The notes beneath the pieces were generated by a model. That model did not search any database. It was not told the DNA's origin and saw only the letters and a program-made list of their open reading frames with translations. A stretch of DNA of 64,000 nt from Malania oleifera (lineage: Eukaryota; Streptophyta; Magnoliopsida; Santalales; Ximeniaceae). A program made the position numbers and the translations under genes. Positions 3,878-58,371 of this stretch are shown here, piece after piece (position 1 is the first letter of the stretch; the number at the start of each line of letters is the position of its first letter). The stretch is from assembly GCF_029873635.1 (NCBI RefSeq), contig NC_080426.1:56350173-56414172 (forward strand), given 5' to 3'.

Positions 3878-5049
3878 CGAGTTGCAGATATCCAGCCTCC
3901 CCCCTCAATCTCTCTCATTCTCTCTCCCTCTCTCCTCGATTTCGTGACGGATTTTCGCTCGATCAAAAAATCGAAAGATACTGCTGGACTCCATTCTCCG
4001 CTGTCATCATTCTACCGGAGCGGATCGGTGGTAGGAGCGGCGTAGACATATCTCCTAGGGTAAGCCAATTTTTTCCTTTTTCTTTAATTTCTTACAAATT
4101 ATAAGCTCAATCAATGAACAGACACCACCACGAGAATCTAGGGATGATTTTCTACAAGTCTAGCGGGATAGAATTCTCGTGGGGTCGTCGTGGGTAAAAC
4201 CCCAAATTTGGGGTACGGGGGTTATTAAGGGGTTTATTTTTAATTAATTAGGATTAATTTGGAAATACTAAAATGTTGAGCATCTGGGGTTGAAGTAGGA
4301 TTTCTGAAATTTAGGGCCCGGGTGAGCGCCGTAGGTGTAATTTTGGGACCCGCATAAAAAATTTTAAAAATTAAGTGGGAGTGTTAAATAATAGTTTATA
4401 TGATAATTTGGGGTGTATGGAGCTTAGGGAAGGTTAGTTGAGTATGTTTTTTTTTTGGAAATGAGTTAATTAATTTAGGAAAAATGTGAATTTCAGGATT
4501 TGAGTTTCGGGCGCCAAGGGTGTAGAATTTGGGTGTTAACGAGTCTCTCAGTAAGTTAGGTAAAGGGAATAAATTATAACACTATTTTTAGAATTACTGT
4601 GTGAATTAATATGTGAAATAAAGCATATGGTATTTTTCTTGAAAGTTATTATGATATAAATATTAGATAAATTGTGTAGCATGTGAGTAATATTAAATTG
4701 TGAATATTAAATGAAAACTGTGTGATATGTGACTTATATTGAAAAATGTGGAATATAACGATGTGTATTTTCTGAGAAAATATTGAAACGAGAATGATTG
4801 ATGTGATTAGTGAAAAATAATAAAATGTGATATTTATGCATGAGTAGAAATTATTTGCATGAAAAATGAGTTTGTATAAATTACTGATATGAGTATTTTG
4901 GGAAATGTGGAAGTACATGAAATATGATATATATTATTATGAGATAATGAAATACGCACAGAAAATGATGAGAATATTTATATTGAACTGAATTGTGATT
5001 TACTGAAACATGATTGATGATATGCCAATACCGCACAATAATTGCGGGT

Positions 5050-6571: not shown

Positions 6572-8091
6572 ATGAAGCTCTCTTCCTTCTCTCTTCGATT
6601 CTTGCTCTATTTAAACCCTTTTTGATGATGAGAAGTTACCTCGAGGTTCGTGGGGTGACTCTCTACAAATTAACCAGAGCGGATCATTGAGTTGGGGTTT
6701 CGGGGCATCACTCCAAAACTAGGGTAGGTAAGGTATTTTAGGGTTTAATTGTTAATTTGGAGTATATGAGGCCTAGGAAATGTTAAATGAGAAATATTCT
6801 AGGGGTTGAGTTAATTAATTTAGGGAAAATGTGAATTTCAGGATTTTGAGTTTCGAACGCTGCGGGCGTAGGATTTGGGATTTAGCAGGTCTCTTAGCAA
6901 GTCAGGTAAGGGGAATAAATCATAACAGTTATTTTTGAAAATTACTAGTTGAATAAATATGTGAAAATGAAAATATGATATGTTTACGGTGGTTATTACA
7001 TTATGAATATTAGGTGAAAAAAAAGTGTGGCATTAGGAATTATGAAATGATTGCTTAATACTGAGAATGTGATTGAAATTGAAATATGTGAATTGTATCG
7101 AGAAATGAAATTATGATATGATTATATCGAAATATTTATACAAATATGAGGGAATGAAATCCTAGTAATATTTGCATATATATAAGTATTATGATATGAG
7201 GTTTATATACAGAATTGATGAAATGTGAAACATAGATATATTATTACTGGGAAATGATGAAATATGTTATACAGACATATTTTTACAGTGATATGATAAA
7301 AATATGAGATACAAATGTGTTTTCATTGAACGAATGATATATGTGATAGAAAGATATGTTGGTACAGAAATTTTTTATATAGAAATATTGAATTGAGTTT
7401 TATACTAATATGAGATGAAATGTGTATTGAAATGATGAAAATGATATGGAAAATGATGAGAATTTTTTTGATGTGATGAAATGTACCAACACACTGAAAT
7501 GTGAGTATTGAGATATGAATACTGAATTGTGAAATGAGAACCTTGATGGATGATTGTTGGTTAGAAAGCACAACACCGTTGCTAGCGAGATGTTAGTGCA
7601 ACCACATGGTCTCGTGGAGAGTGTGGCGTGGCAGTCGATTGGGCCACTGAGAAGGGTAGATATGCCCCTAGAGTCTGGACCAAGCATAGGAAGGCCACTT
7701 ATACTACAAATGGGTAGTTTCATTATTTTGATCTAACTGGGTAGACCAACCGCGGTTAGGTCCAACCTTAGGGCTACACAATCTGGTCATGGGGGGAAGC
7801 ATGATGATATGGGAATATCCTCAAAGCAACCATAAGTTACATACAAGATGCGTATTTTTTTTACTGTGGGCACTCATAAGTTAGATTGTGAAAGGAAAAT
7901 AAGAAATGAAAGAGTGTGGATTTGATGGTATAAATAATTAGGGCAAAGTAAAACTCTTCGCTTGAGGGCTTACTGAGTAAGGTGAGTGCCTTGATAACTA
8001 TTAGTTGTAGCCACAACTGAATTAATTGGGTAAGGTTATAAACGAAATCAAAGCAGAGGGGCGTTACATGTATGGGCGTGTAAACTCCCCT

Positions 8092-12648: not shown

Positions 12649-13563
12649 GTCTAGTACCATGTAAGGAGCAAACCGTGGCAGCGCCACAAATTGGGCGGCG
12701 TACTGCTGAACAGTCAGCTGTCCCTGAGTTAGGTTTAGGAACTCCTCTGCCTTTGCTTTCCTAATAGAGGCTAGAAAATACCAATCAAAGAACACATCTC
12801 CGAAGTGGCTCCACATCATCGCCACCGATACCAGTTTCTGCTCCTCAGTCAGTTTAAATATGGCATATAGCACCTTCTACTCATCGGTGCATCGCAGTAT
12901 GACCAAGATTTTCTTGATTTCCCGAATCCAATTCTATGCAAGAATCGGGTTGGTACTTCTCGTGAAGGTAGGAGGCTGTAGGTGAGTGAACTTCTCAATA
13001 GAATCTCCTAACTCAACATTGGGACGATCTTGCCCCCGAGAACTCTACATAACCTCAACCATAAACTATTGGGCGAAGCCCCAAAGCACCACTGTAGAAT
13101 CACTGCCACCCTCATGGGCAGCTCCCTCACTGGTACTTCCTCTGATGATAACGTTACTATCCTTGGGATCCATCCTGAAGATAGAACCAAAACGAATTTA
13201 TAATCCTAATATCCTACCATATCTGGTGCAATTACAACACTAAAATACTCACTTTAAATAAATTCCAAATACCAGCCTAAATATTCTCACCTAAGTATGA
13301 CAAACTCTGCCAATTTCATATTCCCATTATAGTTTTCAAGTTCCTGCCCCTCCACTTGGAAACAAAATCGTCAATGGATAGCCATGGTGTTTTGAACCCG
13401 TCGACTGATCCAAAAAAACACGGAAGTCTGACAAGGACATTCAGCCTCCAAGCTTACTAAGAAAAACTTAAAATTCTTATTCTACCCATTCCTATTCTCG
13501 TCCTACTTAAACTTATACTTTGGTAAAATCATTCGATCGAGTCTATAGAACCTAGAAACCTAG

Positions 13564-13577: not shown

Positions 13578-15654
13578 TGTAATGACCCGAATATTTATGA
13601 CCTGCTATAATCATAAAAATACTCTCTGATACCACAAACATATATATAAATGCAACCCGCCCTAACCAGAGAATCTAGGGTGCACCTGCCATTGCTGAAA
13701 TTAAAACCATATAGTGGAATATTTCTAAAACATCCAAACACTTTACCTGAGTTCTAACTATTCCCAAAGACATACATATAGAATACTATCTGTCCACATA
13801 TTACAATCTCAAAATAACAAAATAAAATATCTAGTGTCTCACCAGTTCAAATAACTACTCCCAAAAGTCTAATCCCAGCCCCGAGGTAAGCTAGGTACGG
13901 TTCTCTGAAGGACCTGAAAATAATTTGTATAATGGGGTGAGACACTTCTCAGTAAGACAGATTACATTATCATCAGTGTGTAGCGAGCATGAGTTCTTGT
14001 GTAAATATGAAATTCCATTATTTAACTATATATGAAAATGACATTTAAACTATACTAATCAGTATATTTGAAAACACGTAATTTCTGAATAATAAACTGT
14101 CAGCTCAATATAGCCAATCTATAGTAAATTTGCTCATATATGCATAAAAGACACAACCTGGACTGCTGAAGTAGCGTCGTCACGCTGTCACATACTCATA
14201 CAACATGCTTCCCCCCATGACGGGTTGTGCAGCTCAAAGGCTGGACTCAATTCACAGCCGGCGGTTCCACAGCTGAGTCAAAACTAACGTCGTAAGTACG
14301 ATTGTGCCTACCTATGGTCACCTGGTATACTACGAATGGGGTCCCCCAGCAAAAATCTCGGAGTAATACTGCGGCCTAGGTCTCCAATCGACTTATCACA
14401 CTTCCATTCCTGTGTGATTGCACTCACTACCCACATATAGCTACGGTACCGTGCTCACAATATCACAATATTACACATCACAAATCCATAGGGTTCTAGA
14501 ATCATATATGACAATTTACACATTAAAAACTGTATTATCACTAATTTCATACAAAACCTGATATTTAGTAAAACTTGGCCCCCGACCGTCATATTAAAAC
14601 TCGGCCCCCAACCGTTATATCAAAACTCAGCTCCCAACCGTCATATCAAAACTCGGCCCCGACCGTCACATCAAATACTGTATAAAAATCAGTTTAAATA
14701 TTCTGTTCACATATGCCATCTAAAAATTGTTCCCATGCCACAAAATTTTCATTTGTTATCCTTAAATAAAATAACCCAACTAGGAAAAACATAAGTTGCT
14801 AAAAACAGGATCTGAACATCTCCCGCGTTTTATTTAACTTAAACTACTTATTTTATAGAAAATATGAGATGTTCAAACCACCCACATTAATTTCCCCAAA
14901 AACATATACTGCATTTTAATCGGTCCATATTTCACAAAATAGCTGACATAATATAATCCCCTTATCTGATTTACTGGGAACCCTAAATCCTCACCTTGTA
15001 GCATTCAAAGTTCAAAACCCTGAAATTACATTTTCCCTAAATTAATCAACTCAACCCACAGAATATTTCTCATTTAGCATTTCCTAGGCTCCATATACCC
15101 CATTTAACTAATTACATGCTAATCAGATAGCCTATTTCTATCCTTACCAAAATTTTGGAGTGATGCCTAGAAAGACCCAGTTCAAAAATTCACTCTACTA
15201 GACTTGTAGAGAATTTCTCCTAAATCCTTGTCGCGACTTCTGATCATTAAATCAGGCAACGAACGACGAGAAATCATAGAGAGAAGGTGAGGGGCATGGG
15301 TCTTAGAGAGAGAAAGAGAGAGATATTGATTTCTTAATGAAGAAGTAAGTTAAAAACCTATTTATAACTTTTTGACTCAGCACAATTCGTCGATGAAGTA
15401 TAGCCTTCGTTGACGAATTGCAGAAGGACATTCGTCGATGAAAGAGGGGTTCATCGATGAACCTTAAGTCCGATATTTTCCCGTCGTTCAGGATCTCTTC
15501 GTCGACGACACCCGAATTTTGTTGACGAGACACATGAAGGAACTTATCGACAAAAACAGGGGATTCGTCGATGAGTCCTACTATTTGCCCTTTTTAAATT
15601 TTTTTTTCTTCTTTTCTTATTTATTTCCTTATTTTTTGGGTTCAGGTTTCTACA
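13578..15654 (-). mobile_element. Element B 5' LTR
   Basis: On the minus strand it starts TGTAGAAACCTG and ends GGTCATTACA, 2077 bp. Palindrome-array units such as TTCGTCGATGAA and CGTCGACGA lie between 15575 and 15385, followed by a TATA-like 'tataaatagg' (about 15366). A donor TTTTG|GTAAGG has its GT at 15147-15146. The acceptor ATTATTTTCAG ends at 13914, predicting a 1.23-kb first leader intron. Confidence 0.9.
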
Positions 15655-17777: not shown

Positions 17778-19694
17778 TGTTATGCCCCGAACCCATCAGG
17801 TGGGGCTCAGGGTGTGATGAGACCATTCACACGTCTTTGATACCATTCACGTAGTGGAAAATAATAAACAAACTCAAATAAAATACTATAGTTCTATACT
17901 ATTCAACCCAAAAAGGATCTATACCAAATTCTCTATATTACATCACCAGAGAAATATAAAAACATAAATTGTACATATAATTGTTCTTCCCACCACTCAA
18001 ATTTACCAAAAACTAACCTTGCCCCCGGAGCCTTCTAAGCTCGATCACCTGAAGGACTTAAAAAAAATTAATAATTCGCTGGGGTGAGACACTTTTCAGT
18101 AAGGATGGAATAAATTATAATAGTGTGTGGAAATGAGTTGTAATGTATACAAAATATACTCTTTTGTTAATCAAGAGCAACTAACAAACCACATGCTGAT
18201 TGTACTCACACATACATAACCATTATTTATAGAAAAAGTTCCTGAGGATTAAGGAGATTACACACCCATACATGTAATGCCCCTTTGCTTTGATACCGTT
18301 TGTAACCTTACTCTTTAATTTGGGTGTAGTTACAAATGATACTGATTAGGGCACTCACCTTACTCAGTAAGCCTTCAGGTGGAGAGTTTTACTTTGTTAT
18401 AAATATTTGTGCTATTAAATTCACATACCAGTATTCACACAAATGCCAATATCCATCACATTCCACATCAATCATCCACACAAGATACAGTACATTCCAT
18501 TCACATCCACACAAGATAGTACACAAGTCATTCCCAACCACTATCCACCATTACACATTCACCATGACCTCTCCATAGTATATCAGTGAAACGAACTCCT
18601 CAGGTCTGCCAACGTTTTACTCCTGCTTATATAAATGACAATATAGCGAACTCCTCAGGCCTGCCAACGTTATACCATTAGTTATACTTAGGGCAATATA
18701 ACGAACTCCTCAGGCCTACCAACGTTATATTGTAAAATACGAAAAATAATCACACAAAATAACCCATCCAAACACATCAATGTATTTTCAATAGTATATT
18801 CACAACATCCAGACACATCCATGAATTCACCACAATATTCACAACCACGAAGTATTCACAAGCACACAGTATTCACAATCAAACAATATTCACAACTGGA
18901 TAATTATGAAGGGTTTTTCTCATGCCACACAGTTTTTCATAATTATAAATTATATTCAAAACCATCATTTTTCAAATGCCTAAACCGTTCAAAAATTCAT
19001 ACTCATATATATAAATTTACATACTTGAATTTAATTGGATCAAAATTATTAAAAGCTGCTATAACTTATTCCCTTTACCCGATTCTCGAAGTTCTGCCTA
19101 AAACAAATGGGAAATAGAACCCTGTATTCCATAAATCCTAACTTAATCAGTTCAACCCCAGAATATCTATCATTTAACATTTCCTAGGCCCACACACTCC
19201 CAATAATTAATTTAATATTAAAAATATCTTACTTACCCTAGTTTTGCGGTGGTGTCCAAGAATTTAGAATCACAATTTTGCTTCAATTAACTTGAAGAGA
19301 ATCGCCCTAGGAACCTCGTGGTGGTTTTCGATCTTCGAATCAGGTTGAATTCGGGCCAGAATCGAAGAGAGAAAGCAGGGAGTCCGAAGCCCTAGAGAGA
19401 GCAAGTGAGGGAGAGAAAATTTTGCAGAAAAAAATGATCTAGGACCTATTTATAGGTTGGCATTCATCGAAGAGTCAAAAAATTTTGCTGACGAACCAAA
19501 AAAGGACACTCGCCAACTAGAACATTAGTTTCGTCGATGAATCGTTTAAAAACTTGAATTTTTTCTGTTCTTGGGATCTCCTCGTCGATGAGCACAGGGC
19601 ACTCGTCGATGAGGCCTTACTGTGCTGCCCTGAAATTTTTCTTCCTTTCCTTTTTATTTATTTTTCTTTTATTTTCTAGGTTCGGGTTATTACA
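17778..19694 (-). mobile_element. Solo LTR F (Tekay-like), TSD GGTTC
   Basis: On the minus strand it starts TGTAATAACCCGAACC and ends GGGGCATAACA, 1917 bp, flanked by GGTTC at 17773-17777 and 19695-19699. Palindrome units (CGTCGATGA, GTCGACGA types) lie at 19615-19465, then TATAAATAGG (about 19453-19444), then a donor TAGG|GTAAGT with GT at 19236-19235. The acceptor-like tract before 18060 reads TTTTTTTTAAG, with the usual C replaced by A. There is a short tandem repeat with 'gaactcctcaggcctgcc' at 18590-18730. No coding sequence. Confidence 0.93.
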
Positions 19695-19998: not shown

Positions 19999-22105
19999 TG
20001 TAGTAACCTAAACAATTATAGAAATTATATAAAAAAGGAAGTAGAGAAAAAGAAAATTTCAAAAGGATGTAGTAGGGGAGCGTTCGTCGATGAATTGCCT
20101 ACTTGGGCACGTCAACGAGGACACGTGTCTCGTCAATGAAAAGAAACTGAGAAGGATGATTTCAGGGCCTAAAATTCGTCAATGAGGGTACGAGTTCGTC
20201 GATGAACTCCCTTCTTGCCTTTGTCAATGAGATGATGTGGCTTGTCGATGGGGCCACGTGTCCAAAGGTCTATAACTAGCAAAAAATTGGGATTCAACGA
20301 GAGAAATTTATTTATTTTTTCTATTTTTCTCTCTCCTGCTCAGTTTCTCTCCCCTTCTCTCTAGTTTTCTTGCGCTATTTCTCCCCATTTCAACGATCAA
20401 AAGCTGCCACGTTGATCATGGGGTCTATAAGTCTGCCAGAGTAGATAGTTGGTTTGACCAACTTGGGCACCATCCCAAAACCAGGGTAAGTAGATTATTG
20501 GGGTACTTTTAGTATTACCAAGCTTACCTGAGTTTGGATTTTGTGTTGTATGGAAATATACTGGTGTTTTGTGGAATAAATTAGGATGTTATAATTTTAG
20601 GATTAGGGTGTTTTTGGGACCCTGCAGACATGGGTTGAGGATCCCAGTGAATATTTCTAGGAGTTCAGGTAAATTATAGTTCAAAAAATTACGAGTATGT
20701 AGGTTCAGGGAAATGTAGTTGATTTATTGAAAATATGTATATATGTATTATTTCAGGATTTTGGGGATAGCACGCCGTGAGCGTGATGATAAAGTTGGAG
20801 GCAAGCCTCCCAGCTAGTTAGGTAAGGAAAATGTGTTATTCCAGATAAATTAGAATTTTTACCAATAAAGATAGTATAAGATTATGGGTATTTCCAGAAT
20901 AGATATTATAGAGTTATGCTAATTATAATTAATGAGTTATTAATTGTTGTGTGGCATGAGTAATATGAGTACAGTTCTTAATTTGTACAAATGTTACAGA
21001 ATCATGAATAGTTATACAGTTTTATAGAATTAAGACATACAGGATATACAGTTAATTACTGAGCAGATTATACAATATTTATTTCAAAGTTATGATTATC
21101 TAGTATTTTACATAATTATGTATTTAACACAATTTAATAGAAAGTATAGTTTACAGTTTTATAGTGAGCATGTTATATACAGTTTACTGAAATCAGCTAT
21201 ACAGTTTTTAGAATATCATGATATACAAATCTTAGAGTCATAACAAACAGTTATACAGTTTTACAGATAAGTTATTACAATATATGTTCAAAATAGACAG
21301 TATAGTTAATACAGAACAATTATTACAGTGTTATGGCTATTATAGCATAAATAGAATCATGGTAAACAGTAATATACATGCATATACCAGAGTATTATAT
21401 ATATAGTATCAGACCCTGATGGACCATAACAGATCAGATACAGAGCACGACACTGTAGCTATACAGTGGAGAAAGTGCAATCACACATCTTAGTTAGAGT
21501 GTGGCATTTCATGGTCGATTGTGCCATTGGAGAGATTGCAGACTCCTTGGTAATCTGATCTAGGTGGAGGGGAGCAATTGTAGTGCTCCCTAGACAGACT
21601 CAGGTTGAGGGGCGAATTGTACCTTAGTGGAGTTATAGTTGACTTATCTTGGAGGGCCGACCAGGATTAAGTCCGGCCTTCAGGGTGCACAATCCTGTCA
21701 TGAGGGGATTTGAATCATGACATACAATTATCCATCTAGGGAAGTTTTCACAGCTATTATATATATAGAAAGCAATAGGATTACTTATAGCTATTAAACA
21801 TATATTCCAATAGAAAGTTCAGTAACAGATGTATTTTAAGAAACACAAACTTTATATTTTTATTACATGTTATTTTAGATTCGGTTAATTACAGTATATG
21901 TATATAGTTTGCAGAAACTCATATGTCACACACTGGTAATAGCATATTTCGTCTTACTGAGCGTTGTCTCATCCCAGTAATTTAATATTTTCAGGTGATC
22001 CAGCTAGTTGGGTAAACTAGGCTCGTAGATAGAGGAGATATCAATTCCGCCCTACTTATAGGGTAAGTAGTTTTTGAGAGAGATGTATTTTTGTATAGAT
22101 CCTGT
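19999..22105 (+). mobile_element. LTR G (Tekay-like), right end truncated
   Basis: It starts TGTAGTAACC at 19999. It has palindrome units at 20082-20255 (TTCGTCGATGAA, CTCGTCAATGA types), a weak TATA-like 'tctataact' (20268), a donor CCAGG|GTAAGT (GT at 20486), the acceptor AATATTTTCAG ending at 21994 and a second donor ATAGG|GTAAGT (GT at 22063). Similarity to the other LTRs stops near 22105. No TG-CA end or target duplication could be paired, so it is a truncated LTR. No coding sequence. Confidence 0.82.
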
Positions 22106-27074: not shown

Positions 27075-28681
27075 GTCACTCTTTCCCTTCTCTCTTCGTT
27101 TTCGACATCGGCAGTGGCCGGATCGACGATCCGAAGCCACCCCGACACTCCTAGTGGAGTTCTCTGCAAATCTACTGGAGCAGATCGTCGGGAAAATAGA
27201 GTTGGATTTCATCCCAAATTCAGGGTAAGAGCTTTTAGTCCCTTTTGGGCTTTATGACAGTTATAGGAAATAATATAGGCGAAAAAATACTGATATTATA
27301 TTCTGGCATATGTTAGTTCAGGGTGTTGTGTAGGAGGCCCTGCTGGTGTTAGGCCAGTTTATTATAGAGGCTTTTCAAAGTTAAGGTAAGAGAAATATGC
27401 TATGTTAGGTATTTCTTAAATACTATACAACTTATTTAATTATGAAAATTATGTATTTAAGTATGGTGTGGCTTGTGAATATGAATATGGTACGGGTATA
27501 TGTTTTACGAATGCTATTTTCATGATTTTACGAATTTTAGTACCATGATTATGTAAATTTCAATACTATGATTTTATGGATTTTAGTACCATGATTATAC
27601 GAATCTCAGTACCATGATTATACAAATCTCAGTATTATGATAATGCAGTTTCAGTGTTATGAATAAATAATTCTCAGCAGTACGACGTATGAATTACAAT
27701 ACAATTTATGCAGCATCATGGTTATTACGATTACTTCAGAATCATGGTGAATCAGATAGATATGTATAGAAATATATTATATGATATCAGACCCTGTTGG
27801 ACTTATAGCTACAGAGCACGGTACCGTTGCTACAGATATTATGTTACTTTATCAGTATAACCACCTATTCAGATAATACGTAGTAAGGTCGATCACCTAG
27901 GCTCTTGAAGAGGTTAGGCTCCCCATTTAGATATGGGTTGAGGTGGGCAGGTCAACTGACGGAGTATAGTGATTTATTCCTAGTTGGCCAATCAGGATAA
28001 ATCCAGCCTACGGACCGCACAACCCTGTCATGAGAGGGCAAGTCATGACACACAGATAGCCATAGGGAACAGTTTTAGTTACTATTACATACTTACGGAT
28101 TTACAGAAACAGGGACCATACTTATGTACACTAGAAGTACTTTGAATTACAACCTATAATACTGCTACGTTAAACAACATGGAAAGGGGTGGTGTATTTT
28201 ATTATTTGTACTATACTTTCGTATTCAGTTATTCATATTTATATGAAAACAAATTTTATGATATATAGTAGCTCACTTGCCACACACTAGTAATAGCATA
28301 TTTCTTCTTACTGAGCGTTGGCTCATCTCAGTGTTGAAACATTTTTCAGGTGATCCAGGTAGGCGAGCAAATTAGGCTCGCAAATAGAGGGGTGTCGGTA
28401 GTGCCCTGTCAGCAAAGTGAGTACAGTGGAGGATTTTTATATTTGCCCTAGTTAGCTGAGGGTAATTTGGGGATTCAGTGATATGGGTATATTTTAGGGA
28501 ACACGATAGTACTCTGGTATTGGTTTTGGTATTGTATGTAATGATTTATGGTTATGTTTATATGATTTTCGCTTCTTGCTACTTAGGTTAATGGTTGGGT
28601 TTACCCCCAACATGGTATCAAAGCATGTAGAATATTAGTGGAAAAAAAAAATCAAATCAGTTTATTAAGCAGGTCGTTACA
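26702..28681 (+). mobile_element. Solo LTR H (Tekay-like), TSD GATGA
   Basis: It begins TGTAGTGACCCG, ends GGTCGTTACA and is 1980 bp long, flanked by GATGA at 26697-26701 and 28682-28686. The palindrome array 26783-26975 has about seven units, several exact (TTCGTCGACGAA, CGTCGACGA), separated by 'cacaggg'. TATAAATGG follows at 26987, then a CT microsatellite (27032-27072) in the leader, a donor TCAGG|GTAAGA (GT at 27225), an acceptor CATTTTTCAG ending at 28349 and a second donor CAAA|GTGAGT (GT at 28417). The least mutated array in the window suggests a fairly young copy. Confidence 0.95.
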
Positions 28682-32647: not shown

Positions 32648-32693
<46 letters not shown>

Positions 32694-33116
32694 GCATGTA
32701 TACCAAATGTTATACAGAATATGAATTTTTAAAGTATGTGTGGCCTGAGTACATGATATTGATATGGAATTTTATGCATTTTTTCTGTATTTCAAGTTAT
32801 ACAAATATAGTTAGATATTTGTAGATTTTATACAGATAGAATATATGTACATATACAGTTTTATTCAAATAATTATGCAAACAGATATATATAACAGTAT
32901 ACAGATAATTATTCAGAACAGTATATACAGTGTATATAGAAAGCTATGTTTTCCTAAATGCCATAACACTCAGTGTATATAGATAGTTTATACAAACAGT
33001 TTATAAAGACAGATTGTACAGTTATAACATCTAGATGTTACAGTTATTCAGATATCACAATATTTACAGCACATAATTATGGTGTTATGGTTATTTTGGA
33101 AACATGATGAAAACAT

Positions 33117-33155
<39 letters not shown>

Positions 33156-34069: not shown

Positions 34070-34072
34070 GTT

Positions 34073-34084: not shown

Positions 34085-34407
34085 CTAGGTTATTAGGTTC
34101 TGCAGACTCTAGAGTGCAGCGGAAAACAATACCAAAATATAAGTAAAAAAAAATATTTGAGGTTTTGTTCTGTGGTCTAGATATAAGATTTTCATGGTGG
34201 TTTCTGTTTTTTTTTTTTCCTGAGGTGACGATTTCAGGAAAACCATAGTAAACTATCAACGAGTCATGTGTTTGGGCTACATGATTGGATTTTGGGGTTA
34301 GGATCAGGAGGGATGGTTAAAAGAGAATTTAAAGTTTTAGTTAAATTGAATAAGTTAGGTCTGTATGAGAAATAGGATTCTGAAACGGTGTTCTCTATAT
34401 TTGCAGG

Positions 34408-35355
34408 ATGGACCTAGGAGGCAGTAGCGCTCATGCTAGTGGGAACGATGGTGTCGGGCCTTCTGATGTAGGAGGTATAGATTCAGATGTTGTGCTACGT
34501 AGTGTGACTCAACAAGTTATAGTTGAGATAGTGGAGAGTTCTAGAGAGCAGGGAGGTCCATCTCCAGTTCAGAAATGCACCATAGAGAAATTCATGAAGA
34601 TGAATTCGCCAGCTTTTTCTGGAGCGATTGACCCTGCAGTTGCTGAGAACTGGGTGCAAGAGGTAAAGAAGATTCTAACAATACTTCATTGCACTGATGA
34701 GCAGAGAGTTTTATACGCTATGTATAGATTGGCAGGGGAGGCTGAGAGATGGTGGTCGTCCACTAGACTATTGGAGGAGCAGATGGCTATACCAGTGACG
34801 ATGACTTGGGCTCGATTCAGAGACGTGTTCCTCTATAGATATTACCCTGCCTCAGTCAAAGAGGCTAGAGTACAAAAGTTCCTAAGTCTGTCCTAGGGGT
34901 TGATGACAGTCCAACAGTACGCGGCGAGATTTATCGAGCTCTCACGTTTCTGCCCATATATTGTCCCCGATGAAGTGAAGAAGGCGAGAATGTTTGAGAG
35001 GAGCTTGAGGTGAGATATTTACAGGCAGGTGGCAGTACTGAGGATCTAAGATTTCTTAGAATTGGTTGTTAGGACTATTATAGCAGAGGAAAGTTTGCTC
35101 AGAGGGACTGAAATGCAAAGTAAGAAGAAGAAGACCGCACCCTTTAGTGTTCAAGCCCGTCCTAGTCGAGGCCCTTGGAGAGGAGGTAGATCTGGCGAAG
35201 GCCAAAGGCAGATGGTAGAGCATGGGAGATTTCAGGGTGGACAGTTTCTTACCATTTGTCCTAGATGCGGACGGAAGCACCCTAATGAGTGCCGGATGGG
35301 GGAGAATGTCTGTTATCATTGTGGGAGGCCTAGCCATATGGCTCGATCATGTTAG
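34408..35355 (+). pseudogene. Element D gag
   Basis: Starts at ATG 34408, one base after the acceptor-like TCTCTATATTTGCAG. The first 162 codons are open. They include KFMKMNSPAFSGAIDPAVAENW and GEAERWWSSTRLL, the capsid region of Tekay Gag. Stops follow at 34894 (TAG), about 35011 (TGA), 35047 (TAA) and 35353 (TAG), all explained by C-to-T or G-to-A changes. The zinc knuckle CYHCGRPSHMARSC (35311-35352) is intact and would bind element RNA in the particle. Confidence 0.9.
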
Positions 35356-39126: not shown

Positions 39127-39870
39127 TGTAACGACCCGAAGAACAATGATATTTAAATAATAAAGAGGGAGGGAAATAGAAACAAAAACAGAAGGAGGCA
39201 GCAGGCTTCGTCGATGACATTGCACTTTGAAAGTAATAATCCGGAAGTTTTACACAGGGCCATAGGGAGTTCGTCGACGAGCTCATAAGTAGGCCTTGTC
39301 GACAAAGCCACGCCTCATCGACGAGAAGATGCCGAGAGGAGTTTTTGGCCAGTCTAAATTTCATCGATGAGGAGGTAGGGTTCATCGATGAAATTACTTA
39401 AGCACTCGTCAATGAGGTGACGTGTCTTGTCAATGAATCCAGCTCTATAAAAAGTGAAAACTCAAATTTTTGGACGAATTTCCAGTGCAAACTCTCCCTT
39501 TCTCTCTCTAAAATGCACCTCACTTCTTCTCTCTTCAATCCTGATTCCTTTTCTCGCCAGATTGAAGATCTGAGGTTACCACGACGCTCCTGGCAAAATT
39601 CTCTACAAGTCTGCCAGAGGTGATCGTGGGAGAAGTTGGTTTGGAATTCATCCCGAATCCAGGGTAAGGTATTTTATTCAGATTATGCCTTCCTTGTAGT
39701 TATAAGAAATGTTGTAGGTAAGAAAATGCTAATATTTTGTTCTAGAGGATATTGTTTTCAGGGTGTTGAGTGGAGAACCCTGCGAGTGTAGGGCTAGAGT
39801 TCAGTGAGAGGCTTTTCAGATTTAAGGTAAGGAAAATATGCTATGCTAGGGGATTTACTTATGTTATCAG

Positions 39871-39910
<40 letters not shown>

Positions 39911-40333
39911 TGTTTACCAGATGTTATAAAAAATATGAATTTTTAAAATATGTGTGGCCTGAGTACATGATATTGATTTGGAATTTTATGCAGTTTTTCT
40001 ATATTTCAAGTTATACAGATATAATTAGATATTTGCAGATTTTATACAGATAGAATATGTGTACATATACAGTTTTATTCAGATGATTACAGAGAGAGAT
40101 ATATATAATAGTATACTGATAATTATTCAGAACAGTATATACAATGTATATAGAAAGTTATGTTTTCCTAAATGCCATAACACTTAGAGTATACAGATAG
40201 TTTATATAGACAGTTTATAAAGACATATTATACAGTTATAACATCCAGATGTTACAGTTATTTAGATATCACAGTATTTACAGTACAAAATTATGGTGTT
40301 ATGATTATTTTGGAAACATGATGAAAACAGTAA

Positions 40334-40364
<31 letters not shown>

Positions 40365-41274
40365 GGTGTATTTATATAGTATCACATCCCTATGGAAAGA
40401 GTATAGACAGATACAGTTTATAGGGCATGGTACCGATGCTAATATAGATAGAGTGCGACCACATATCTCAGATAGTGTGTCGGTACCGTCAACTGTGCTC
40501 GGAGAGTATGCAGCTCCCCAGTTCACTGAGTTGAGGGGGCCAATTTGACGAGGTAGCAGCCAATCCCGCACCTTGGAGAGTATGCAATTTGGTCTAACTG
40601 AGGTAGTGTAGAGTATAGTGACTTTCCTAGAGGGCCAACCAGGTTAAGTCCTGCCTATGGGCCGCACAACCCTGTCATGAGGGGTCATATCATGACATAC
40701 AGAGTCCCAAGAAAATAGCACAGTTATGTATATGTATACAGTTTTACAGATTTTATTGTGTATAGTATGTTATAGCAATATGAATGATAGAAAGTTCATA
40801 TGATACAAATGTTTTAAACTACTATACATGTGCTTTACAAATTTGTCAGATCATGTAGTTTTATATATATTAATGTTAATGTTATAGTTTTACGACTCGG
40901 TCGCCACACACTAGTAATAGCATATTTCCACTTATTGAGTATCGACTCATCCCATTACTTTAACATTTTTCAGGTGAGTCAGTTAGGTGAGCAGATCAAG
41001 CTTGCGGGTAGAGATCACTTGGTCACCCTAGTTATTGGGTAAGTTTTTGTGTAGGGTTTTGTATTTTTGGGATAGTTGAAACTAGAGAGAGAGAGAGAGA
41101 TGTATTACGTAGCTATGGTTGCAAATATTGAATTCTGATATTGTATATATATTTATATGTAGTTATGTGATTTATGTTTTCTACTACATAGGGGTGCCCA
41201 TTATATTCAGATATTGGAGTAATTTTTTATTATATTTATATAAAAAAAATGGTGAGAATTTTGAGTATGTGACA
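39127..41274 (+). mobile_element. Element D 3' LTR
   Basis: 2148 bp. TG/CA ends are intact. The palindrome array 39206-39435 is more decayed than in the 5' LTR (CGTCGATGA, CATCGATGA). TATAAAAAG lies at about 39446. Donor 1 CCAGG|GTAAGG (GT at 39664) is intact. The acceptor tract CATTTTTCAG ends at about 40973 and donor 2 TTGG|GTAAGT has its GT at 41039. Confidence 0.93.
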
Positions 41275-41470
41275 GGTGCGCCCTGACTACCCTATGCCAC
41301 TTGAGCGGGTTACGCTAAGAAGGAATTCATGTTCGCTGGATAGGGTATACCCCATCTCTTGATCGTGCTTCGAACAATTGGTGCGACCCGACTATCCTAT
41401 GCCACTTGAGTGAATGACTTATCTTGGAAACCCTAATATGGATAATTGACCGAGCCTAAGTATAGCTCAC

Positions 41471-47199: not shown

Positions 47200-49170
47200 T
47201 GAAATAACTCAGGGAATTAACAAGGCCTCGTTGACGAACACAAGGAATTCGTTGACGAGAACTTATAAGAGCATTATCAACGAGGACATGTCTCATCGAC
47301 GAGAAGATACCGAGAGGGGGTTTGAGGCGGTCTGAAATTCATCGACGAGGGGTGAAGGTTCGTCGATGAACTTCTTCAGGGACTTATCAACGAATTTGGG
47401 GTTATAAATAGCCAAAACTCGGTTTTTTCAGTAGAAAATGGTGTAAAGATATCCTCTCTCTCTCTCTCTCTAAAATGACCCTCTCCCCTACTCTCTTCAA
47501 TCTCGGCTCCATTTCTTGCTGGATCAAGGATCTAAGGCGATCACGACGCTCCTAGGGAAGCTCTCTGCAAGTCTGCCGAAACGGATCGTTGGTGGAGGTG
47601 GTTTGGAGTCCATTCCAATTTCAGGGTAAGACATTTTATTTAGTTTTTTTCTTTCCCACGGTTATAAGAAATATAATATACGAAGACATAACAATATTTT
47701 ATTGTGAAAGATGTGATTTTCAGGGTGTTGAGTGGAGAACCCTGTGGGTGTAGAGCCAAAGTACAGTGGAGGCTTTTCAGAAACTAAGGGAAATATGTTA
47801 TGGTAGGAGTTTTTAATTATATTGCCCAAGTTTTTATGTATATACATGTATACCAGTTTATTATCCAGTTATTACAGAATAAGAGTTTTTAATGTTTGTG
47901 TGGCCTGAGTAGATATTTACTTGATATAGAATTTATACAGTTTTTCCCAGTATATCATGATTTACAATATGTACAGACATAGACAAATAAACACGGATAT
48001 TTTATACAGACAGATATAGACAGATTCTCTTTAGTTCATTATATTACAGTATTTACAGAATGTCATGTTTTCCTAATGCCATAACACTTAGATTATATAG
48101 ACATATTATACAGACAGTCTATGCAGACAGATTATACAGTTATAGCATCCATATGCTATAATTATATTCAGATATTACAGTATTTACAATACAGAATTAT
48201 AGTGTTATGGTTATTTTGGAAACATGATGAAATCAATAGAAAGATTATAGTATTATGTATATATGGTATCAAATTCCTATGAAATATTACAGACAGATAC
48301 AGATTACAGAGCACGATATCGTTGCTAATACAGATAGAGTGCAAACACATATCTCAAATAGTAAGTGGGTACCGTCATATCGTGCTCGGAGTGGATGCAG
48401 CTCCCCAGTTCGCTGGGTTGAGGGGGCCGATATGACAAGGTAACAGTCCAGTTCTGCGCCTAGGAGTGGATGCAGTTTGGCCGGACTGAGGTAGCGTAGA
48501 GTACAATGACTTACCTAGTAGGCCAACCAAAGTTAAGTCCCACCTATAGGCCGCACAACCCTATCATGAGAGGTCAAATTATGACATACAGAGTTCTAGG
48601 GAAAAACACAGTTATGTATATGTATACAATTTTACAGTATTTGATAAATATAGTATGGTATTAGCAATATGAAAAGTAGAAAATTCAGATGATACAGTTA
48701 TACTTTAAACTACGAGAAATGTAAGATATGTTTTACAGATTTATCATTCTAAACAGTTCAGATGTTATTGAAATAGTATAGTAATAGCATATTTCCACTT
48801 ACTGAACGTCATCTCACCCTATTACTTTAACATTTTTCAGGTGAGCTAGTTAGGCGAGTAGATCAGGCTCGCAGATAGAGTGATTACTTAGTTGCCCTGT
48901 TTATAGGGTAAATTTGTATAGAGTGTTGTATTTTGGGGTAGATGGTACTGGAGAGAGATGTAAAATCTAACTATAGTCTAAAAATATTAAATATTGTATT
49001 GTATGGTATATGTGGTTGTATGATTTATGTTTCCGCTACATAGGTATGTTTATTGCATACGGGAATACCCCTGTGGCCTTATAAGGCCTGAGATTTCATA
49101 GCAAGGGTATAAAAGTAGTTCACATATGTTTATTTAGGGAAAAAATGATTTAATTTTTAAGGTCGTCACA
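47200..49170 (+). mobile_element. Element C 5' LTR
   Basis: 1971 bp, starting TGAAATAAC (TGTAATAAC in the 3' LTR) and ending GGTCGTCACA. The palindrome array 47223-47395 has decayed units (CTCGTTGACGAA, CTCATCGACGAG). TATAAATA lies at 47403-47410. A CT microsatellite is in the leader (47455-47472). Donor 1 TCAGG|GTAAGA, acceptor CATTTTTCAG and donor 2 ATAGG|GTAAAT are all present. Confidence 0.95.
47626..48840 (+). other. Predicted leader intron 1 of element C
   Basis: Donor CAGG|GTAAGA and acceptor TTTAACATTTTTCAG|GTGAG, 1215 bp. The same pair is seen in the other Tekay-type LTRs of this window. The AG is followed by GTGAG, so the acceptor joins a donor-like sequence as in a recursive splice site. 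Predicted from sequence only. Confidence 0.6.
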
Positions 49171-49498
49171 TTTTTTGTATCAGAGCTTAGGTTGTCAGGT
49201 TCTGTAAACTCTAAAGTGCAGTGGAAACCAATACCAGAATATAAGGAAAAGGATTTGAGGTTTTGTTATATGATCTAAATATAGGATGTTCGTGATGGTT
49301 TCTGTGTTTTTCCTAGAGTGACGATTTTAGGAAAGTCATAATAAACTATCGACGAGTCATGTGTTTAGGTTGCAGGATATGATTTGGGGTTAGGAGTAGG
49401 AGGGGTTGTTAATAGAAAATATAAAGTTTTAGTTGAATGGAATAAGTTAGATTTGTATGGGAAATAGGATTCTAAAACGGGGTTCTATGTATTTGCAG
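48908..49498 (+). other. Predicted leader intron 2 of element C, removing the primer-binding site
   Basis: Donor TATAGG|GTAAAT and acceptor TCTATGTATTTGCAG, 591 bp. It spans the LTR end and the primer-binding site, and the gag ATG starts one base after it. Exon 2 would be 48841-48907, 67 bases. Predicted from sequence only. Confidence 0.6.
49175..49186 (+). other. Primer-binding site of element C
   Basis: TTGTATCAGAGC, one mismatch to the initiator-methionine tRNA complement TGGTATCAGAGC. Confidence 0.88.
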
Positions 49499-49499
49499 G

Positions 49500-50520
49500 A
49501 TGGACCCAAGAGGTAGTAGCGCTCACGCTAGTGGAGATGATGAAGCTAGACCTTCTGGTGCAGGAGGCGGGGATTCAGATGTTGTGCTATGTAATGTGGC
49601 TCAGAAAATTATGGCTAAGATTGCTCGGAGCTGTAGGGAGCAGGGAGGTCCATCACCGGCTCAGGGATGTACGATAGATAAATTTGTGAAAATGAACCCG
49701 CCGGCATTTTTCGGAGTGGCTGACCTTGCTGTTGTGGAGAACTGGGTGCATAAGATAGAAAAGATTCAGATAGTACTTCACTACACGAATGAGCAAAGAG
49801 TCTTATATGATACGTACAAACTAGCAGGGGAGGCCGAGAGATGGTGGATAGCCACTAGATTGTTGGAGGAGCAAAGGGTTATTCCAGTGTCAATGACTTG
49901 GGCCCGATTTAGGGACATGTTCTTTGATAAGTACTATTCTGCCTCAGTCAGAGAGGCTTAAGTACAGGAGTTTTTTAGCCTGTCTTAGGGATCATTGACA
50001 GTCCAGCAGTACGTAGTGAGATTTATCGAGTTATCACGTTTCTGCCCCTATATTGTTTCAGATGAAATCAAGAAGCCTAGAATGTTCGAGAGGAATTTGA
50101 GGCGAGGCATTTATAGGCAGGTGGTAGTATTGACGATATAGGATTTCTCAGAGTTAGTTGACAGGGCTATTATAGCAGAGGAGAGTCTGCCGAGAGAGAC
50201 TAAGGCACCGAATCAGAAGAAGAGGGCCGCACCTTCAAGTTTTCAGGTGGGTTTCAGCTGAGACCCTTTGAGGGGAGGTAGATCTAGCAAGGGTCAGAGA
50301 TAGATGGTAGAGAATGGTGGGTTTTAGGGTGGACAACCTTCCACCACTTGTCCTAGATGTGGACGGAAGACATCTAGGTGAGTGCTGGCTGGGGGAGAAT
50401 GTTTGCTATCGCTACAGAAGGCCCAGTCATATGGCTCAATCCTGTCAAATGTCGTCAGGTTATGCAACGGCTGTTAGACCGTTTTGAGGTGGATACCAGG
50501 TGCCCCATGGAGGTAAGTAG
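49500..50520 (+). pseudogene. Element C gag
   Basis: ATG at 49500, one base after TATTTGCAG. It is open for 153 codons with TIDKFVKMNPPAFFGVADLA and GEAERWWIATRLL. Stops follow at 49960 and 49987 and in the spacer (for example near 50140 and 50260). The zinc knuckle reads CYRYRRPSHMAQSC: its second Cys is Tyr (TGC or TGT to TAC or TAT), so metal binding would be lost. Confidence 0.9.
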
Positions 50521-53500
50521 AGGAACACTACGCCGGCGAGGGTCTTTGCATCGACGCCAGGTGACGCTAAGACAGCCGGAGACATAGTCACAAGTACCTT
50601 TCTTGCTTTATCATATAAAATTATTATTTTGTTTGATACAGGTGTCACCCACTCTTTTATATCGGTGGGGTATATCAGAATAACTAGGGTAGAGACACAG
50701 TTATTAGATGTAGAGTTGTCTGTGGGTACGCCGACGGGATCTGTGGTAAGATGCAGGAAGGTGCTTCGGAATTTTCCAATAAGTATTCAGGAGAGAATAC
50801 TACTTGCGGATCTCGTGGTCCTAGATATGCAGGGATTTGCTGTGATACTGGGTATGGATTGGCTAGCAACTCATCACGTCAACATAGATTACTGTAAAAA
50901 AGAAGTAATTTTCAGACCTCCGGGTGAGCAAGAATATAGATTCGTGGGTTCACATGTAACAACCCGGGTAATTTTTTTTAAAAAAAATAATTTAAGATAG
51001 TAAGGAAGACAGAAAGGGAAGGAAGAACAAATTCGAAGGGTGGCAACAAACATTCATCGACGAATATACTAGTCTCATCAACGAATATTCTTCTTAGCTC
51101 GTCGACGAGGGTACGTGTCTCGTCGATGAGGAATTACCGAGAGGGGTTCTTCGCATGACTGAAATTGGTCAACAAGTTGGCTATCTCATCGACGAACCCT
51201 TGAGTATAAATAGTGGATTTCCTTTATTCCAACGCGAAATTTCCATATGTTTCCCTTCTCTCTATAAAGCCTTCGGCCATACCACCTTCTCTCTTCGATT
51301 CTGGGCCGAATTTAGCTCGGTTCGACGATTAGAAGCTACCACGAGACTCTTGGGAAGATTCTCTATGATATAGGTAGAGTGGATCTTTGAATTGAGTAGT
51401 TTGGGAAACATCCCAAAACCAAGGTAAGTGAACTATTTTGGAATTTCTTTAACAAATATTGTCCTTTGGAGCTTAGGAAGTACTATAGGAGTATTATACT
51501 AAGATTTGAGGAAATTGGAATTTTGGATTTCAGGGTCTCGTTTTGTTAATTTTAGGTCAAATTTCGAGGAGCGGGTAAGGGGAAATATTTTATAATGGCT
51601 TTTCAATAATTTTAAACAACTAATGTCGATTATGAAGTTCTATATATATACAATTATAATTTTTTAAATTTTACTGGTATTGAAAACGTTGTTTTTAGAT
51701 AGATAAATTATATTGAGAAAAACTATGTGGTTGAAATCATTTTTTATAAATAAATGATTGTGAGTAATGTGGAATGAGGAATTGTTGAGAATGTGAATAT
51801 TGATTGATTGTGAAATTCTGGTTGATTGAATATGCTGATGTTGTGTATATTTTTGTAAAATCTTGGGTATGTTGAACGGTTGTTTTATGTTGATTTGGTT
51901 GTGGTTCATGTAAATTACGATATAGCGTTGGCAGTGGTATGAGGAGGTCGTTGTATCGTACCTGGTATAACCATCATATAATGTTGGCAGTGGTATGAGG
52001 AGATCGTTATATGGACGCTTATATTGGGAGGTAAACATTGGCAGTGTTATGAGGAGGTTGTTTGCCTATTTACCATGAACGGAGTGTTGTCTTGTATCCT
52101 ATGTGGTTTGTATAGTCATGTGTGGACATTAATGTTGTGGTTTGATTTGTATTGTGTGGACATTAATGTTGTGGTTTGATTTGTCCTGTGTGGACCAGTC
52201 CTGTGTGGACATTAAGGCTATGGTTTGATTTGTCTAGTGTGGACCAGTCCTGTGTGGACATTGATGTTATGGTTTGTATAGTCCTGTGTGGACATTTATG
52301 TTGTGTTTGATCCTGTGAGGATTGGTAGCGTTATGTTATATGTGTGGAGTTCTATGAAACAAATATGATCAGCAACGTGAGAAACTAAATTAATTAAGTA
52401 TTTTGGGTAAGGTAGATTACTCCACCATAGAGCTTGTTGAGGAAGGCGAGTACTCTAGTAATTATTTGTGGATACTAGAGTAAAGGGAAGCCACTTGTAT
52501 GGGCGGGTGATCTTCTTTATTCTTGGTGACTTTACCTGGATACATAACCCGAGGGCTTACTGAGAAATATGAGTGCCCTGGTGTTAGCACTAGAGCAGAG
52601 GGAACCTACTTATATGGACGGGTAGATTTCCCTATTCTCGGAAATTAACATTAAAATACTGATGGTTATGGGTATGTGATTGGATGATAAAGACATTGAT
52701 CTTGTGTGATTATGGGCATGTTATCTAGGCTTCTTGGGAACTATGTGTACACTCTAGATGGATATTTTAATTGTATAATAAACACTTCAGCCACACACTA
52801 TTGTAAACTATTTCTTCCTTACTAAGAGGTGTCTCACCCCGTCTTATGTTAAATCTTTTCAGGTTATCCAGGAGATCAAGCTTAGTTAGCTCCAAGGCGA
52901 GTAGTTTTGTGAGTGAAACTAGAAAGGATATGTATTAGTTTTTATAGTTTTTTTTTTTTTTTTTTATACTTCTTTTAGGTTTTTGTAATATGGCAAACAT
53001 GGCTATATGATATAAGTTTTGTTAATGTGTAAATATAGAACTTTGGTATATTATGGTTGAGGTTATTTTTATCATTTCTTTTTTTCCGCTCATGAATAGT
53101 ATCAAAGACGCGTGTCGTTCTCATAACATTCTGAGCCCCATGTGGCGGGTTAGGGGCGTTACATCACGTGTATGTGCCTCACCACAGTTTGTGTCAGCGA
53201 TTCAGGTAAGGAGACGGTTGTTAGGGGTATGTTGCATACATAAAAGAATCGCCAAAGGTAGAATTAAAGCAAGCTGATATATCAATAGTGCGTGAATTTC
53301 TAGATGTCTTTCCAGAGGAATTGCCTAGCCTACCACTAGATCGAGAGATTGAGTTTACTATAGATCTGTTGCCGGGGTCAGCACCGGTATCTAAGGCACC
53401 GTATCATATGGCTCCAATCGAGTTAAAAAAATTGAAAGATTTGTTACAAGAGCTGTTGGACAAAGCGTTTATCAGACCTAGTGTGTTGCACTGGGGAGCT

Positions 53501-56419: not shown

Positions 56420-58371
56420 TGTAATAACCCAGTAAATTAACAGGGTCTCGTCGACGAACACAGGGAATTCGTCGACGAGAACTTATGAGAGCCTTGTCGA
56501 CGAGGACATGTCTCGTCGATGAGAAGATACTGAAAGTGGGTTTGAGGTAGTCTGAAATTTGTTGATGAGGGGTGAAGATTGATCGACGAACTTCTTCAAG
56601 GACTCGTCGACGAGATGACGTGTCTCGTCCACGAATCCAGGGTTATAAATAGCCAAAACTTGGATTTTTCAGTAGAAAATGGCGCAAAGATATCCTCTCT
56701 CTCTCTTTCTCTCTCTCTCTCTCTAAAACGACCCTCTTCCCTTCTCTCTTCGATCCCGTCTCTGTGTCTCGTCGGATCGATGGTCTAAGGCCATCACGAC
56801 GCTCCTGGGTAAGTTTTCTACAAGTCTGCTAGAGCAGATCGTTGGTGGAAGTGGTTTGGATTCCATTCCAATTTCAGGGTAAGACATTTTATTCAATATT
56901 TGTCTTTCCCACAGTTATAAGAAATATAATATATGAAGAAATAACGATATTTTGTTCTGAGAGATGTGATTTTCAGGGTGTTGAGTGGAGAACCGTGTGG
57001 GTGTAGAGCTAGAGTACAATGGGGGCTTTTCAAAAACTAAGGGAAATATGCTATAATAGGAGATTTTCATTATATTACCAGAGATTTTATCTATATACAT
57101 ATGTACCAGTTTATTATCCAATTATTATAGAAAAAGAGTTTTTAATGTTTGTGTGGTCTAAGTAGATATTTACTTGATATTAAATTAATACAGTTTTTCC
57201 CAATATATCATGATTTACAGCATGTATAGACATAGACAGATAAACACTTTTATACAAACAGATATAGACAGATTCTATTCAGTTCATTATATTACAGTAT
57301 TTACAAAATGTCATATTTTCCTAATGCTATAACACTCAGATTATATAGACAGATTATACAGACAGTTTATACAAATAGATTATACAGTTATAGCATCCAG
57401 ATGTTACAGTTATATTCATATATTACAGTATTTACAGTACAAAATTATAGTGTTATGGTTATTTTGGAAACATGATGAAATCAATAGAAAGATTATAGTA
57501 TTATGTATATATGGTAACAGATTCTTGTGAAATATTACAAACAGATACAGATTACAGAGCACGGTACCATTGCTAATACAGATAAAGTGCAACCACATAT
57601 CTCAGATAGTGTGTGGGTACCATCATACCATACTCAGAGTTGATGCAACTCCCCAATTCGCTGGGTTGAGGGGCCGGTATGATGAGGTAGTAGTCCAGTT
57701 TCGCTTCTAGAAGTGGATGCAGTTTGGCTGGGCTGAGATAGTGTAGAGTACAGTGACTTACCTAGTAAGCCAACCAGAGTTAGGTCCCGCCTACGGGCTG
57801 CACAACCCTGTCATGAGGGGTCAAATATAGTATGGTATTAGTAGTATGAAAAGTAGAAAATTCAGATGATACTTTATACTTTAAACTACGAGAAATATAA
57901 GATATGTTTTACAAATTTATCATTTTATACAATTCAGATGTTATTGAAATAGTATGCAACTTAGTCGCCACACACTAATAATAGCATATTTCCACTTACT
58001 GAGCGTTGTCTCACCCTATTACTTTAACATTTTTCAGGTGAGTCAGTTAGGCGAGTAGATCAGACTCGCAGATAGAGTGATTACTTGGTTGCCCTGTTTA
58101 TAGGATAAATTTGTACAAAGTGTTGTATTTTGGGGTAGATGGTACTGGAGAGATATGTAAAATATAACTATGGTCTGGAAATACTGAATTCTGGTATTAT
58201 ACGGCATATGTGGTTGTATGATTTATGTTTCCGCTGCATAGGTATGTTTATTGCATACAAGAATACCCCGGTAGCCTTCAGAGGCCTGAGATTTCATAGC
58301 AGGGGTATCAAAGTAGTTCATATGTGTTTATTTAGGAAGAAAAAAATGATTTAAGTTTTGAGGTTGTTACA
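56420..58371 (+). mobile_element. Element C 3' LTR
   Basis: 1952 bp, TGTAATAACCC to GGTTGTTACA. It is aligned over its length with the 5' LTR; a segment of roughly 60 bp around 57827 is missing relative to the 5' copy. Donor 1 TCAGG|GTAAGA (GT at 56880) and acceptor CATTTTTCAG (ending at 58037) are kept; donor 2 reads TATAGG|ATAAAT and has lost its GT. Confidence 0.94.
56448..56633 (+). promoter_or_regulatory. Array of TCGTCGACGA palindromes before the TATA box
   Basis: About nine units, several exact (TCGTCGACGA). They are spaced by 'acacagggaat', 'gaacttatgagagc' and similar. The array ends 10 bp before TATAAATA at 56644-56651. It is the best kept example among the complete elements. Confidence 0.88.

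Follow-up and report, generated by a model that had tools for sequence, protein, structure and literature searches.

A putative spliced leader in the long terminal repeats of Tekay/Del-like chromoviruses of Malania oleifera, and its possible role in separating mRNA from genome copy

How the RNA of a retrotransposon is divided between translation and reverse transcription is a major question, as the BARE paper puts it (PMC3735527). It is raised here by a 64,000-nucleotide stretch of Malania oleifera DNA (contig NC_080426.1, positions 56,350,173 to 56,414,172; denoted the window), which holds a nest of related long terminal repeat (LTR) retrotransposons. An earlier reading made from the letters alone (the sequence-only reading) had proposed for one of them, element C, a leader with two introns, the second of which would remove the primer-binding site just before gag. 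Self-BLAST and boundary reading gave nine elements with 12 LTR copies, including the 5' and 3' LTRs of C, D and B (C5, C3, D5, D3, B5 and B3). The best explanation, which we hold to be fairly probable, is that the LTRs of these chromoviruses provide a 5' leader which is spliced and acts as a switch between mRNA and genome copy. The features of C on which it builds are listed below; a slash marks a proposed junction, and lengths are in nucleotides (nt).

47202..49170, forward strand: 5' LTR of C, from self-BLAST and end sequences
47403..47408, forward strand: TATA box of the 5' LTR; transcription start assumed about 33 nt downstream
47436..47625, forward strand: proposed exon 1, start estimated
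47626..47631, forward strand: donor 1, CAGG/GTAAGA, an alignment peak
47626..48840, forward strand: intron 1 as in the sequence-only reading, 1215 nt, guanine plus cytosine (GC) fraction 0.33, 33 ATGs
47718..47723, forward strand: acceptor 1a, TTTCAG/GG
47724..47783, forward strand: putative remnant of mini-exon 1b; donor 1b lost (CTAAGG where others have GTAAGG)
48798..48818, forward strand: two CTNAY branch-site-like motifs, CTTAC and CTCAC, 39 and 24 nt 5' of acceptor 1
48835..48840, forward strand: acceptor 1, TTTCAG/GT (TTTTTCAG/ ending at 48840)
48841..48907, forward strand: proposed exon 2, 67 nt, no ATG
48908..48913, forward strand: donor 2, TAGG/GTAAAT
48908..49498, forward strand: proposed intron 2, 591 nt, 17 ATGs; includes the LTR end and the primer-binding site
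49174..49186, forward strand: primer-binding-site-like TTTGTATCAGAGC, shortly after the LTR end
49492..49498, forward strand: gag-proximal acceptor, TTTGCAG/G ATG, with the ATG at 49500
49500..49961, forward strand: start of gag, open for 153 codons, then a stop

On re-reading, the positions that had been given for donor 1 (47626), acceptor 1 (48840), donor 2 (48908), the gag-proximal acceptor (49498) and the ATG (49500) of C proved exact.

Conservation of splice-site sequences within the LTRs

Two blocks of about 300-530 nt, one around donor 1 and one around acceptor 1, were aligned over the nine elements with one LTR each. The second LTRs of C, D and B were dropped, because post-insertion twins would inflate identity. 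Six-column alignment windows were ranked by mean pairwise identity, blind to motifs; the donor block gave 321 such windows (columns with at least 7 letters, median identity 0.53) and the acceptor block 497. The donor 1 hexamer GGTAAG came out at the top of the donor block, with an identity of 0.931. The second separate peak of that block, TTCAGG (0.926), lies about 100 nt 3' of donor 1 and marks a site that the sequence-only reading had not listed, here denoted acceptor 1a (TTCAG/G). The top three separate peaks of the acceptor block were CTTACT (0.931), the TTTCAG of acceptor 1 (0.926) and CTCACC (0.907).

Counts over single sites gave the same picture at donor 1, whose GT is present in all nine elements and in 11 of 11 LTR copies at the aligned site, as part of GTAAG in nine of these 11 (F has GTAGG and L3 has GTACG); the donor 1 region of B3 was searched for and not found. 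The AG of acceptor 1a is kept in nine of nine elements, and that of acceptor 1 in eight of nine elements and 10 of 12 LTR copies (changed in B3 and I). CTNAY is a form of the branch site. Upstream of acceptor 1, CTTAC stands at 38-41 nt in six of the six copies listed and CTCAY at 23-26 nt in five of the six (D5 has TTCAC), and the last base of the CTCAY motif is C or T in all nine elements. Upstream of acceptor 1a, CTNAY occurs in H and D3 and does not occur in C.

The sites behave as conserved U2-type signals, and it appears highly probable that they are under selection. The expectation that GT and AG would be kept better than their surroundings was borne out at donor 1 and acceptor 1 among the nine elements, but not at donor 2 (see below). 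Donor 1 and acceptor 1 had also been placed in other LTRs, correctly for B, G, H, E and D (the D pair belongs to the 3' LTR). The donor at 4060 in LTR L3447 (here L3) was rejected as non-homologous; the aligned donor 1 is the GT at 4213 (GTACG). Two copies that had not been listed carry the pair as well: D5 at 32439 and 33759, and C3 at 56879 and 58037. F and I, likewise absent from that reading, have donor 1 too (6724 on the forward strand and 19236 on the reverse strand). At acceptor 1 of C5 (48838-48845), C3, D5 and D3 the junction reads CAG/GTGAG, an acceptor overlapping a donor-like sequence, like recursive splice sites; this junction is not conserved in G, H, E and L3.

Within 41-68 nt after acceptor 1a there is a further donor-like sequence, donor 1b (AG/GTAAG-like), which forms the eighth conservation peak of the donor block. 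Its GT is present in seven of the nine elements (L3, F, I, E, G, H and D) and lost in B and C. Intron 1a, between donor 1 and acceptor 1a, would measure 284 nt in L3, which carries an insertion of roughly 180 nt, and 97-128 nt in the other eight. The intron 1 of the sequence-only reading is probably, in most elements, two introns around a mini-exon, and the two-intron leader would have three introns where the mini-exon is intact. C and B would have either just one intron here or what is left of a decayed cassette. The proposed parts outside C are as follows.

39664..39761, forward strand: intron 1a of D3, 98 nt
39762..39826, forward strand: mini-exon 1b of D3, 65 nt, between TTTTCAG and AAG/GTAAGG
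39827..40973, forward strand: intron 1b of D3
40974..41038, forward strand: exon 2 of D3, with donor 2 (GTAAGT) at 41039
27322..27385, forward strand: mini-exon 1b of H, 64 nt (donor 1 27225, acceptor 1 28349, donor 2 28417)
20601..20668, forward strand: mini-exon 1b of G, 68 nt (donor 1 20486, acceptor 1 21994, donor 2 22063)
51534..51574, forward strand: mini-exon 1b of E, 41 nt, GT of donor 1b one alignment column off (donor 1 51424, acceptor 1 52862)
6842..6905, forward strand: mini-exon 1b of F, 64 nt (donor 1 6724, acceptor 1 near 15.9 kilobases (kb), donor 2 15965)
4497..4559, forward strand: mini-exon 1b of L3, 63 nt (donor 1 4213, acceptor 1 6037, donor 2 6102)
19079..19121, reverse strand: mini-exon 1b of I, 43 nt (donor 1 19236, acceptor 1 decayed)
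13914..15147, reverse strand: intron 1 of B5 as in the sequence-only reading
15020..15147, reverse strand: intron 1a of B5, 128 nt; acceptor 1a present, donor 1b lost (ATAAGG)

The proposed exons and introns differ in composition. The GC fraction is 0.39-0.51 in exon 1 (eight copies), 0.45-0.54 in exon 2 (five copies) and 0.32-0.37 in intron 1 (eight copies). Compared with the numbers expected from base composition, ATGs are few in exon 1 (11 in eight copies, 18.6 expected), absent from exon 2 (0 in five copies, 7.3 expected) and numerous in intron 1 (293 in eight copies, 229.7 expected). Leader lengths assume a transcription start 33 nt below the TATA box, so that the starts of exon 1 are estimates. 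On this basis the unspliced leader of C would measure 2064 nt and hold 52 upstream ATGs, of which splicing would remove 50, leaving 2 in 258 nt; for D5 the corresponding values are 2154 nt with 57 ATGs unspliced and 254 nt with 3 spliced. Exon 1 of C5 holds, close to its start, a short upstream open reading frame of 26 codons (47475-47555), with a similar-looking counterpart in D5.

Donor 2, the primer-binding site and the start of gag

Donor 2 is consensus-like (GTRAG or GTAAAT) in six of the nine elements: L3, F, G, H, D3 and C5. The primer-binding-site-like sequence of C lies inside the proposed intron 2, as the sequence-only reading had it, and TTTGTATCAGAGC presumably matches the initiator tRNA-Met. 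C, D and B each have a TGGTATCAGA(G/A)C-like sequence after the LTR. In B, two TGGTATCAGAG sequences stand about 60 nt apart on the reverse strand, at about 13624-13634 and 13565-13575, one within the LTR end and the other just past the LTR, as if the primer-binding site had been duplicated.

The start of gag reads CAG/GATGG in three of three leaders (C, D and B), and the acceptors that had been reported for D and B are present at the positions given for them.

34401..34408, forward strand: gag-proximal acceptor of D; AG ends at 34406, gag ATG at 34408
13173..13180, reverse strand: gag-proximal acceptor of B, CTTCAG; AG ends at 13175, gag ATG at 13173

Besides the gag start, the leader of B matches that of C only around the primer site.

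Comparison of LTR twins showed several sites lost from one copy and still present in the other: D5 lacks donor 2 and acceptor 1a, C3 lacks donor 2, and B3 lacks acceptor 1. Such a pattern is expected from neutral decay following insertion, provided that the active parents had retained these sites. Donor 1b of C is gone from both LTRs, and its loss therefore probably pre-dates the insertion.

No LTR without intron 1 was found among the nine elements of the window, and the two ends of intron 1 lie far apart in nine of nine. An RNA that lacked intron 1 and kept the primer site would be expected to yield intronless LTRs, because the LTR stretch between the transcription start and the primer site is copied from the RNA 5' end. 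The retention of intron 1 fits a joint removal of the primer site and intron 1.

In the mechanism that we propose, transcription would start below the TATA box of the 5' LTR. Exon 1 would be joined at donor 1 via the mini-exon, where it is intact (seven of nine elements), or straight to acceptor 1, and exon 2 would be joined from donor 2 to the acceptor one base 5' of the gag ATG. The spliced RNA, with a leader of about 250-330 nt and few upstream ATGs, would be translatable and serve as the gag-pol mRNA; without the primer-binding site and the LTR end it could not template reverse transcription. Unspliced RNA would retain both, would be almost untranslatable with its about 50 upstream ATGs, and would be the genome copy. 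We consider it likely that the primer-binding site is regularly removed by splicing into gag, and a shade less likely that this removal amounts to a switch between translation and genome.

Splicing of an intron that lies far 3' of the pol stop could make the RNA a target of nonsense-mediated decay, which would favour an RNA end placed 5' of acceptor 1 in the 3' LTR. AATAAA-like 3'-end signals had no conserved position in the eight LTR copies searched. A motif TTTCYNCTAC, about 120-140 nt after donor 2, was found by pattern in three of eight LTR copies (C5 at 49030-49039, D5 at 33958 and D3 at 41178), with a looser likeness in other copies; it is possibly a 3'-end-processing site.

Weighing the spliced leader against other readings

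Several points weigh against a spliced leader that runs into gag. Donor 2 has an identity of 0.556, which ranks 86 of 497, and at the aligned place it is not consensus-like in B, E and I: in B5 the GT is in the alignment and reads GTAGTT, and E and I have no GT there. Alternative donor 2 candidates exist in B5 at 13842 (CTG/GTGAGA) and 13746 (CAG/GTAAAG) on the reverse strand, and E and I also have other candidate donors elsewhere. The gag-proximal site is known from three leaders, two of which (C and D) are close relatives, and CTNAY, looked for within 60 nt of the gag-proximal acceptors of C, D and B, was found at none of them. The spliced leaders of C and D would still hold upstream ATGs, the GC contrast of B5 is slight (0.39 in exon 1, 0.37 in intron 1), and uridine content is nearly equal in exon 1 and intron 1; plant introns usually differ from exons in U content (PMC3735527). 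The alignment design adds to these points, since the blocks were cut around the proposed sites and the ranks are valid within the blocks and not for the whole LTR, the copies share ancestry and their counts are not independent, and D is represented by D3, the LTR with fewer lost sites than D5. By our arithmetic, the lack of intronless LTRs among nine elements excludes intronless templates only above about 28%.

In one rival reading only the LTR introns 1a and 1b would work, raising expression by intron-mediated enhancement and clearing the upstream ATGs of the LTR, with intron 2 rarely used or unused and the primer site left on most RNAs. In plants, introns placed early in the leader frequently boost expression, and conservation at donor 2 falls far short of that at donor 1, acceptor 1a and acceptor 1. 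Such RNAs, however, would yield LTRs without intron 1, of which there are none in nine elements; the consensus-like donor 2 in six of nine elements and the CAG/G at all three gag starts also speak against this reading, under which the 17 ATGs of C intron 2 would stay in the RNA. We regard it as unlikely. Alternatively, the blocks could be promoter, packaging or 3'-end-processing elements of the LTR that resemble splice sites, with no regular splicing. Other conserved peaks are not obviously related to splicing (CCCAAA, CTACAA and TAGGAA in the donor block, ACACAC and AACTCA in the acceptor block), conservation extends beyond donor 1b, and the LTR must hold a 3'-end signal somewhere. Yet coincidence would have to account for top peaks that consist of a perfect donor, a perfect acceptor, and CTNAY with a T-tract and CAG, in the right order and at intron-like spacing. 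In addition, C aligns with D over its whole length, but between C and distant elements such as G or E, BLAST found nothing in the central part of intron 1. This makes non-splicing elements quite improbable. The thought that the sites are common by descent alone, with no selected function, draws on the relatedness of all nine elements. It sits badly with GT at donor 1 in nine of nine, AG at acceptor 1a in nine of nine and AG at acceptor 1 in eight of nine, against mean majority dinucleotide fractions of 0.50 in the donor block and 0.47 in the acceptor block, and we consider it very improbable. The spliced leader that separates mRNA from genome copy remains the reading we favour.

Lineage, precedents and consequences

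The protein matches fit Ty3/gypsy chromoviruses, probably of Tekay/Del-like type. The further LTRs are placed as follows.

56420-58371: 3' LTR of C, partner of its 5' LTR
31892-34070 and 39129-41275: LTRs of D
about 50955-53163: E, a solo LTR inside C, from self-BLAST and boundary reading

The LTR pair of C aligns in two BLAST pieces, 85.1% and 86.5% identical. E (50950-53168) is bordered by TCACA and TCACG, an imperfect target duplication of 5 base pairs (bp). B lies on the reverse strand, inserted in another LTR, F, which it splits. The other copies are one element ending in L3, and the LTRs G, H and I, with I on the reverse strand. Tandem arrays of roughly 68 bp units occupy 58372-58900, directly 3' of the 3' LTR of C, and 59955-60521; further tandem repeats (5070-5499) lie in L3, within its intron 1.

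The gag of D matches PF03732 with 26.2 bits (cut-off 24.1), and a Pfam search with the gag of C gave no match. The reverse transcriptase of C matches PF00078 (RVT_1) with 51 bits (cut-off 29.6). At the end of pol, D has a strong SH3_Tf2-1 match (77.9 bits), followed at the expected place by a weak Chromo match (E 0.0096, 16.3 bits, below the cut-off of 25.1). All 11 protein matches of the D gag are from Malania oleifera, a tree of the Santalales, and are 44-78% identical. Searches of viral contigs with the D gag and the C reverse transcriptase found no relatives outside the window, and a search of genome contigs with the C reverse transcriptase found none either.

A donor 5' of the primer-binding site has parallels among viruses. 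In foamy and HTLV-type (human T-lymphotropic virus) retroviruses the major donor lies in R, 5' of that site; their Gag comes from unspliced RNA, the reverse of the arrangement proposed here. In Cauliflower mosaic virus the leader donor likewise lies 5' of the Met-tRNA primer site and splicing shortens the leader, but the acceptor is within ORF II and brings another gene to first place, and this pararetrovirus has no LTRs (PMC5902531).

Plant LTR elements are generally without introns, with Ogre and EVADE as the exceptions named in a 2025 review (PMC12786077); the facultative introns of EVD/EVADE and Ogre resemble ours in kind, but lie inside or between coding parts (PMC12786077). Ogre and the chromovirus CRR are also given as splicing in the BARE1 paper (PMC3735527). 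Barley BARE1 has separate RNA pools for translation and packaging, with splicing only in the translated pool, but it is a Ty1/copia element whose pools come from two promoters and whose intron, at the end of gag, gives a Gag-only mRNA (PMC3735527). Closest in geometry is Diaspora of soybean (2005), for which five LTR donors were predicted 1.4-2.2 kb 5' of gag-pol, together with two acceptors that flank the start codon; it differs in being an Athila-lineage Ty3/gypsy element and in that the prediction came without a conservation test, and according to its authors no introns upstream of gag had been reported until then (PMC1142308). In the CRM4-derived tandem repeats of maize, CRM4TR (2013), three of three full-length cDNAs lose most of a chromovirus LTR-UTR (UTR, untranslated region) by splicing, one with an extra LTR splice, but these are tandem-repeat transcripts and not whole elements, they belong to the CRM clade, and no role in replication was proposed (PMC3648361).

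The words "splic" and "intron" are absent from the text of a CRM review (PMC3059260). The open-licence literature searched, in the parts available, held no Tekay leader intron. The arrangement is nevertheless less novel than had been implied, since introns leading from the LTR to gag have been predicted in Diaspora, and cDNAs of the CRM4 repeats have most of the region between LTR and gag spliced out; what appears new is the conservation over nine elements, the putative mini-exon and the placing of introns within the LTR. Tekay RNA may be hard to obtain, because the expressed element set described for sunflower has no Tekay member (PMC7730604).

Del, which equals Tekay (PMC6317226), is the commonest Gypsy clade of Malania oleifera, at 6.99% of the assembly (PMC6377399). 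If the proposed leader is real, host splicing alone would settle, in that clade, how RNA is split between translation and reverse transcription. Introns would remain in the LTRs, and intronless LTRs would be rare. Solo LTRs would bring a promoter, an exon and a donor ready for exon capture. More tentatively, and with rather less confidence than we place in the leader itself, a whole lineage of plant chromoviruses could have an RNA switch in the form of a leader with three introns and a mini-exon as cassette. Splicing would turn a genomic RNA closed to ribosomes into the sole gag-pol mRNA and, by deleting the primer-binding site, would bar the spliced RNA from re-entering the genome, so that the introns would persist in the LTRs; solo LTRs might then supply nearby genes with a promoter, 5' exons and a donor.

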